A stretch of 64,000 nt of DNA, taken from the NCBI GenBank assembly GCA_016932505.1, contig JAFGCT010000035.1, positions 1-64,000 on the forward strand. The letters are read 5' to 3'. The first letter of the stretch is position 1. The number at the start of each line of letters is the position of its first letter. Made by a program: the position numbers and the translations under genes. This document shows positions 33,665 through 35,968 of this stretch, in pieces. The DNA is from Candidatus Peregrinibacteria bacterium. GTDB lineage: Bacteria > Patescibacteriota > Gracilibacteria > UM-FILTER-43-11. The notes under the pieces are model-generated. The model worked only from the letters and a program-made list of their open reading frames with translations, made no database searches and was not told the origin of the DNA.

Positions 33665-35968
33665 ATGAAAACAAAACTTTCCAAAATCATAGCTAAAGCA
33701 CCGCAAAAGCCAGGTGTTTATAAATTTTTGGATGATGAGAAGGCAGTTATTTATGTTGGAAAGGCAAAAGATCTTCGTAAAAGATTGCAAAGCTATGTCC
33801 GTCCATCCGCAAAGAATGGAATTAAGACAGAAAAGATGATTGAGTCTGCGGAGTCGGTAGAATGGATAGAAACTAATAGTGAGCTAGAGGCTTTGATACT
33901 GGAAGATAATATTATTAAAGAACTTCGACCTAAATATAATATTCTCTTAAAGGACAGTAAGACTTTTCAATATATTAAAATAACAATCCAAGACGAGTAT
34001 CCGGAGGTAACAACAGTTCGTAAGATTGAAAAAGACGGTGCTAAATACATTGGACCAAAAACAAGCGGTTCCGATGTTCAGCATTTAATGGAATCTGTTA
34101 AAAAGATATTTAAATTATGTAGTACGAAGAATATTTCCGTAGACCCAAAGGGTACTCCGTTAATTGGCGCAAAGGTGGCTGTAAAAATTGGTAATGTCCC
34201 TGCCAAAAGACCATGTTTGGATTATCATATAAAAAGATGTACTGGACCTTGTGCAGGCATAGTAACGCCGGAGGAATACAAAGAACAGATCAATCAGGCT
34301 ATAGAGTTTCTTTCTGGCGACTATAAGCCGGCTAAGGAGGCACTAACTAAACAGATGCACCAGTTTGCACTGGAAAAAAAGTTCGAAAGAGCTGGATCAC
34401 TTCGTGATCAGATTCAGGCCATTGAAAGACAGGCTGAAAAGCAATTAATTACTGATACAAATTTAACACAAAGAGATGTAATCGCTTATGTTGAAGATTT
34501 GGGAAAGAATTACTTTGTATTGTTTCAAATAAGAGGTGGTAAATTAATCAATCAAGAAAAATTTGTATCGGAGGGAGGTGATACTCCAGGGGAAGTAATG
34601 GAATCTTTTCTTGTTGATTATTATGGTCGAGCCGCTGATATTCCAAAGGAAGTCATTATTTCTATGGAAATTGATGAAACTAAGATGATTGGTGAATTTA
34701 TTACTTCACAAACCGACCACAAAGTTAAGTTGATTCATCCAACAAAAGGACAAAAAGATAAATTAATTGAACTTGCAGAAAAAAATGCCCGAAGCTTTGC
34801 CCAGCAATCACGAGTAAAATGGATGGCCGATGGAAGAAAGGGGGAGAAGGCTCTTGAGGAGTTACAGAAGGCTCTTAGAATCAAGGAATCACTCAAGAGA
34901 ATTGAATGCTATGACATCTCACATCTTTCTGGCACAGAGACTGTTGGAAGCATGGTAGTATTTAAAAAAGGTGAGGCATATAAACCGGACTATCGTCAAT
35001 TCCGCTTAAAATCTACCGTCGGTAAAATAGACGACTTTAAAAGTATGGAAGAAGTAATAACTCGACGATTAAATTATTTACCAGCTCAGCTACCTAATGA
35101 ATATAAAATTCGAAAAGCAAAAAAAACTGATGCGGATTTTATTTTGAAATCTTATTCGGAAGTTAAAGATTTTGATTTTGACATTAAACAGTTTTATGTA
35201 ATTGAAAAAAATATAAAAAAGAAGAGCTCAATTGTAGGCTTTGGACGTACTCATAAATTATCTGAGAAAGTTGAAGAAATAGGTGCGATTTGGGTTGACG
35301 ATAAAGAGCGTGGTATAAAACTTGGTCATCATATAATGACTACTCTGATTGAAAAATCAAAAGCCAAGCGTTTGTATTTACTCGCTCATCCACATCTGGA
35401 AGACTATTATTTAAGATTTGGCTTTGATTCACTTCGTGACGCTCCATCTGAACTTAAAGATGTTTATAAAAAAATTATTAAAGTTGTTGGTGATAAAACT
35501 CAACCTGTTTATATGGCTTATCAAAAAAAGAAAAAAGATACATCTTTTGAAAGCTATCCAGACTTGATTGTAATTGATGGTGGCAAAGGACAACTAAGTA
35601 CTGCACATCAGGTTTTGTTTGAAAAGGGATTGAATGTACCAATTATTGGACTAGCGAAACGGGAAGAAGAAGTTTTTATTCCAGGCAAATCTGAACCAAT
35701 CGATTTAAAAAAGAATTCAGAAGCAGGTTATTTGCTTCAGAGAATACGTGATGAAGCCCATCGATTTGCAATTGAGCATAACCGAGCAAGTCGGGATAAA
35801 AAAATGGTGAAATCCGGACTAGACTCAATACCTGGTGTTGGTCCTAAGATGAGAAAAAAATTACTTACATATTTTGGTTCAGTACACCAAATTAAAGAAG
35901 CACCACAGGTAGTTTTAGAGCAAGTAGCCGGTGAGGAATTGGCTAAGATAATTAAAGAGAATCTGTAA
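33665..35968 (+). CDS. uvrC: UvrABC system protein C with GNAT-like insertion
   Basis: GIY-YIG KPGVYKFLDDEKAVIYVGKAKDLRKR; UVR domain; ECYDISHLSG, LIVIDGGKGQLS, IRDEAHRFAI; HhH C-terminus. Confidence 0.95.
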   Translation: MKTKLSKIIAKAPQKPGVYKFLDDEKAVIYVGKAKDLRKRLQSYVRPSAKNGIKTEKMIESAESVEWIETNSELEALILEDNIIKELRPKYNILLKDSKTFQYIKITIQDEYPEVTTVRKIEKDGAKYIGPKTSGSDVQHLMESVKKIFKLCSTKNISVDPKGTPLIGAKVAVKIGNVPAKRPCLDYHIKRCTGPCAGIVTPEEYKEQINQAIEFLSGDYKPAKEALTKQMHQFALEKKFERAGSLRDQIQAIERQAEKQLITDTNLTQRDVIAYVEDLGKNYFVLFQIRGGKLINQEKFVSEGGDTPGEVMESFLVDYYGRAADIPKEVIISMEIDETKMIGEFITSQTDHKVKLIHPTKGQKDKLIELAEKNARSFAQQSRVKWMADGRKGEKALEELQKALRIKESLKRIECYDISHLSGTETVGSMVVFKKGEAYKPDYRQFRLKSTVGKIDDFKSMEEVITRRLNYLPAQLPNEYKIRKAKKTDADFILKSYSEVKDFDFDIKQFYVIEKNIKKKSSIVGFGRTHKLSEKVEEIGAIWVDDKERGIKLGHHIMTTLIEKSKAKRLYLLAHPHLEDYYLRFGFDSLRDAPSELKDVYKKIIKVVGDKTQPVYMAYQKKKKDTSFESYPDLIVIDGGKGQLSTAHQVLFEKGLNVPIIGLAKREEEVFIPGKSEPIDLKKNSEAGYLLQRIRDEAHRFAIEHNRASRDKKMVKSGLDSIPGVGPKMRKKLLTYFGSVHQIKEAPQVVLEQVAGEELAKIIKENL
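35081..35557 (+). other. GNAT-acetyltransferase-like domain inserted inside UvrC RNase H-like domain
   Basis: YKIRKAKKTDADFILK...IGAIWVDDKERGIKLGHHIMTTLIEKS...HPHLEDYYLRFGFDSL. Confidence 0.8.

Follow-up and report, generated by a model that had tools for sequence, protein, structure and literature searches.

UvrC is a conserved repair enzyme, and the protein described here has all domains and catalytic residues in common with the UvrC family (TIGR00194) and the UvrC structures 2nrt, 1yd6, and 8b0q. It differs from those structures in a predicted extra GNAT-fold domain of about 150 residues, which lies before the strand carrying Asp638. This domain shares the order of the fold, the position of the P-loop, a tyrosine, and a GF motif with the GNATs ElaA (5z6n), 3d8p, and ArgA/Rv2747 (5yge, 5yo2), but compared to the GNAT superfamily, such UvrC inserts are nested in a nuclease, have lost the P-loop in many cases, and contain a helix in a variable a4-b7 region. 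Two further systems invite comparison: antizyme, a GNAT-fold protein that acts by binding, and the in-frame palindromic elements within genes that have been described for Rickettsia. A search of the open-access literature, with subscription papers outside its scope, returned no paper on a GNAT domain in UvrC. New here are the age of the insertion, the repeated loss of the P-loop, the exchange of the domain within families f1 and f5, and the presence of unrelated domains and repeats in the same loop. It is unusual for a conserved repair enzyme to carry a class-wide domain that appears to pass between genera when the enzyme itself does not. A large group of ultra-small bacteria carries in its UvrC a foldable domain with a repeatedly lost cofactor loop, which makes the insert a clean test case for the persistence of domain insertions and marks a UvrC loop able to take whole domains.

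The window, i.e. the whole stretch of 64,000 nucleotides that was analyzed, comes from a Candidatus Peregrinibacteria bacterium (contig JAFGCT010000035.1, positions 1 to 64,000). Its uvrC reading frame (Table 1) contains no internal stops, and the encoded protein exceeds the cut-offs of the full-length UvrC profiles TIGR00194 (525 bits, cut-off 285) and NF001824 (500 bits, cut-off 451), with Pfam matches to GIY-YIG, UVR, two RNase H-type domains of UvrC, and helix-hairpin-helix. This agrees with the initial annotation, which had called the frame uninterrupted and otherwise canonical, and the two aspartates and the histidine of the RNase H-like fold that it had listed as kept are indeed found as D417, D638, and H699. 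These residues, as well as H420, E80, and N92, are invariant in 121-122 of the 122 insert-bearing UvrCs, where aligned; likewise, the GIY-YIG residues Y19, Y30, R40, E80, and N92 are invariant across the 122, where aligned. UvrA and UvrB genes are also present in the genome, in which there is one UvrC match only. The dual-incision nuclease part thus appears unchanged around the GNAT-fold insert.

Table 1. Features of the window UvrC, and loci of other genomes with different contents in the equivalent loop.
Feature	Position	Strand	Evidence or remarks
UvrC ORF, 767 aa	33665..35968	+	TIGR00194 2.4e-157; stop included in coordinates
GIY-YIG nuclease domain, aa 16-92	33710..33940	+	PF01541 8.4e-10
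UVR motif, aa 225-256	34337..34432	+	PF02151 1.8e-5
UvrC RNase H-like domain PF22920, aa 270-380	34472..34804	+	1.3e-28
RNase H endonuclease domain, first half, ending at the insertion point after RRLNY	34805..35083	+	PF08459 1.4e-51 in two stretches
Catalytic Asp417, RNase H first half	34913-34915	+	
GNAT-fold insert (predicted), about aa 474-623	35084..35533	+	Pfam, NCBIfam, PDB profile search, AlphaFold2, Foldseek
Putative acyl-CoA P-loop, R550-G-I-K-L-G555	35312..35329	+	Lys for usual Gly
YYLRFGF, aa 582-588	35408..35428	+	Tyr583 at usual GNAT general-acid position, then GF motif
RNase H endonuclease domain, second half	35534..35773	+	PF08459 stretch 621-703
Asp638, RNase H second half	35576-35578	+	
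His699, RNase H second half	35759-35761	+	
Helix-hairpin-helix region, aa 719-754	35819..35926	+	PF14520 2.5e-5, just under curated cut-off
Unrelated domains or GNATs of another type in UvrC loop			L128, L133, L134, L135, L165-L167, L170
Short in-frame inserts with inverted repeats in UvrC loop, other Patescibacteria			L213, L214, L217, L219, L221, L223, L226

The insert is located in a surface loop preceding the strand with the catalytic Asp638. Between RRL (residues 468-470) and PDLIVIDGG (from residue 632 on) lie 161 residues, in line with the insertion of about 159 residues initially placed at 35081-35557; the KKDTSF before PDL is ordinary UvrC, which limits the insert proper to about residues 474-623. 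The GC content of the region is about 0.30-0.33 in 300-base windows, below that of much of the surrounding gene. PF00583 is matched at 5.5e-7 in the whole protein and at 6.2e-8 by the segment alone, which exceeds the Pfam cut-offs for Acetyltransf_1 (PF00583; 33.4 bits, cut-off 20.7), Acetyltransf_7 (PF13508; 30, cut-off 27), and Acetyltransf_10 (PF13673; 24.6, cut-off 23.6). NCBIfam PRK07922 is matched at 1.7e-10, and a PDB search using a profile of 46 inserts, whose conserved columns are biased because the set was chosen for kept motifs, returned 3d8p (2.6e-11) and ElaA (5z6n, 1.4e-9); the P-loop counts below use all inserts. The insert misses the equivalog cut-offs of PRK07922, an amino-acid N-acetyltransferase (40.8 versus 180 bits), and of ElaA PRK10314 (27.4 versus 171).

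An AlphaFold2 model calculated with 63 UvrCs has a mean pLDDT of 86, and of about 90 over the insert, for which it predicts the GNAT order of strands and helices, b1-a1-a2-b2-b3-b4-a3-b5-a4-(helix)-b7. Foldseek matched this model to the C-terminal half of UvrC (2nrt, 4.7e-14) and to UvrC GIY-YIG structures, as well as to the GNATs 5yge (ArgA with AcCoA, 1.1e-6) and ElaA (3.8e-5). Profile searches and structure prediction, both proposed as checks in the initial annotation, agree on the GNAT layout it had described, and support a nested GNAT fold within an otherwise intact UvrC. Also confirmed is the lysine it had pointed out: compared to the GNAT P-loop consensus Q/R-x-x-G-x-G/A (PMC4964394), the window motif RGIKLG has lysine in place of the middle glycine. 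That such a lysine kills the P-loop was dropped as a rule, as ElaA and 3d8p carry the same residue in the printed PDB profile alignments; it therefore does not rule out CoA binding. With this lysine variant, and with Tyr583 and the GF motif kept, the motif is plausible as a CoA loop.

Twenty-seven families of the class, which groups with Candidatus Peregrinibacteria/Peribacteria (named loci), were sampled, and 21 of them have homologous inserts of 106-316 residues at this position; in the window's own family, every member with a contig covering the loop carries one. More than 100 other genomes, including single-contig ones, have such inserts in the same frame, which rules out the assembly chimera that the initial annotation had named as a danger to its claim. 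The same recurrence at one position, the continuous frame, and the GNAT profile match rule out an intein or intron, and in the Pfam and NCBIfam profile searches, the insert was not covered by any family of inteins or introns. No point in favor of any of these artefacts was found, and we give them next to no weight.

In the sampled UvrCs of other phyla, the equivalent loop measures 6-16 residues; in other classes of Patescibacteria, it is mostly 6-51 residues long. No GNAT insert was seen outside Patescibacteria among a few dozen UvrCs. Inside the class, the insert is missing in families f3, f13, f7, f10, and f14 and in one f5 genome, and decay has left a handful of inserts in families f15, f17, and f2 with weak profile matches. 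In one family of another class (f49), two genera carry the GNAT insert (L211/G549), so that it is either older than the class or was transferred; the other profile matches outside the class in 380 genomes of the phylum are free-standing GNATs in short frames. On a core UvrC tree built without the loop, 6 changes of the GNAT label are needed, as compared to 53.8 for shuffled labels, and the insertion is therefore ancient. The homologue search and tree mapping that had been proposed for the insertion thus find it recurring across the class. In one genome (L113, G141), the loop is 316 residues long and holds two GNAT-like units in tandem. The UvrCs of families that read TGA as Gly (table 25; L136-L140) have a loop of 8-18 residues without insert.

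Of the 122 inserts, 12 have a canonical P-loop, 53 a Lys/Arg variant of it, and 15 another variant; the remaining 42 have lost it. On the core tree, the P-loop switches between kept and lost 21 times, and at least 14 of these switches are forced by starred branches. Where the P-loop is kept, Y583, G587, and F588 are 95-99% conserved, and R-G-x-K-[LI]-G and Tyr583 are found in the window and in most f1, f5, and f18 inserts. Judged by sequence, CoA binding by the insert appears to be dispensable across the group. For an insert lacking both the P-loop and helices a1-a2 (L008), a small GNAT-like fold is nonetheless predicted (mean pLDDT 84, pTM 0.75), to which Foldseek matched GNATs and antizyme (5bwa, 4zgy) in the PDB. 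As antizyme is a eukaryotic ornithine decarboxylase regulator, this is a structural likeness only, and no homology is claimed. In pairs with the same variant, the pN of the insert is 0.03-0.12 versus a pS of 0.19-0.73; the insert is under purifying selection where neighbors have the same variant.

The histories of insert and core conflict in at least families f1 and f5. Sequence identity within genus g10 is 82-89% in the flanks and 53-62% in the inserts, whose closest counterparts are found outside the genus, pairing L059 with L001, L055 with L012, and L057 with the window. The insert data reject a g10 clade (p-AU 4.9e-8), and the core data reject the cross-genus pairs L059+L001 (AU 1.3e-47) and L057+window (4e-62); these and the following AU values are descriptive, some tested groups having been noticed beforehand. 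Ten genera of family f5 have at least two members and are testable. All 10 form clades, both in the whole core and in every one of four core segments of comparable length, whereas 6 of the 10 are not clades in the insert tree, which derives from short and diverged alignments (AU p: g99, 1e-113; g119, 4e-5; g59, 0.0016; g114, 0.016; g110, 0.042). Over 13 pairs selected for their discordance, mean identity drops at the left border from 88% just outside to 47% inside the edge, is 20-21% at a1-a2 and b6-b7, and rises at the right border from 58% at the edge to 96% just beyond.

That the insert merely evolves fast was rejected for f1 and f5, where cross-genus pairs of the same variant diverge like the core (insert versus core 73 v 74, 55 v 54, and 64 v 63% in three cases) and core segments of equal length keep all genera as clades. 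The rejection does not extend to family f18, in which insert and core identities are correlated (r = 0.80) and no conflict is seen; because the two track each other there, exchange is not universal. Synonymous divergence is mostly saturated and of little use as an exchange test. In f1 and f5, the incongruent histories show a domain that appears to have been exchanged like a cassette across genera, which points to a partner that varies or just to easy recombination via the conserved flanks.

Different domains occupy the same UvrC loop in genomes of families f7 and f9: one resembling a DUF559 nuclease (8e-35) and flanked by inverted palindromes, one resembling a nucleotidyltransferase (1.7e-6), a serine hydrolase of the alpha/beta type (7.5e-12), and other GNATs (2.4e-16). 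Elements resembling the palindromic ones of Rickettsia are likewise in frame in the loop of other Patescibacteria, and the repeat in L221 has further partial copies elsewhere in its genome. The window insert differs from these elements in being a folded domain in which no such repeat was seen. The loop before the Asp638 strand is a hot spot accepting whole domains. In L212 (G290), it contains 125 residues with a charged insert that is unrelated to GNAT by profile and is probably coiled.

The explanation we favor, with a probability of roughly 0.55, is that the insert is an accessory domain, domesticated and exchangeable, in a permissive UvrC loop, more likely providing a binding surface than repair chemistry. 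A GNAT domain would have entered this surface loop a single time, no later than the base of the Peregrinibacteria-type lineages, and have become an accessory domain that, going by profile and model, folds on its own atop the unchanged nuclease. The P-loop would have been lost many times with the insert retained, CoA binding being dispensable, and in at least two families, those with incongruent trees, the domain would have been replaced as a unit across genera, with homologous recombination in the conserved UvrC flanks as the simplest route. It would most likely offer a variable partner a binding surface on UvrC, with or without acyl-CoA, and would not perform a chemical step of excision repair. 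Counting against this is the P-loop-like motif plus tyrosine in about two thirds of the inserts, which an active enzyme seems to explain better than a binding role. Such an acetyltransferase, modifying UvrC, UvrB, another protein, or a small molecule and tying repair to acetyl-CoA, could draw on the motifs kept in the window and most f1, f5, and f18 inserts, on the shared lysine of ElaA and 3d8p, on the 12 canonical P-loops, and on best structural matches that are CoA-bound ArgA/Rv2747 structures. Activity is possible for the window insert; as an account of the domain we consider it unlikely, since inserts were retained through at least 14 losses of the P-loop, and since variants swapped between genera, varying most in the acceptor-side regions a1-a2 and b6-b7, are ill suited to one fixed repair substrate. 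Given these losses, the GNAT-like fold of a lost-loop insert, and the unrelated domains in the same loop of relatives, a fixed catalytic repair role does not generally account for the domain. According to the initial annotation, a nested acetyltransferase could link incision to acyl-CoA status, or could modify UvrB or other repair partners; the nested GNAT fold stands, but the coupling and the modification find no support.

Less probable than an active enzyme is diversifying selection on the insert as an allele-like recognition module, in which deep variants would be kept and swapped as a varying factor, e.g. a UvrC-targeting phage or mobile-element protein, favors rare ones. Slightly more doubtful still is a neutral passenger, with a loop that tolerates any in-frame DNA and GNAT, nuclease, nucleotidyltransferase, hydrolase, and palindromic repeats all as debris. 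The diverse loop contents of the f7 and f9 genomes, the palindromic repeats of other Patescibacteria, with partial copies of one in the same genome, and the families without insert would fit such debris. The insert was kept through most of the class with few losses, however, and its fold is retained even without the P-loop; pN is also far below pS in same-variant pairs, and this purifying selection speaks against pure debris.

A free-standing GNAT of 151 residues with the motifs RGKKLG and YYKELGF is encoded in genome G027 (L239:2418-2873, plus strand). Its match to the insert profile (E 1.9e-23) spans positions 12-156, almost the full length, and, unlike the insert, it is a separate gene outside uvrC.
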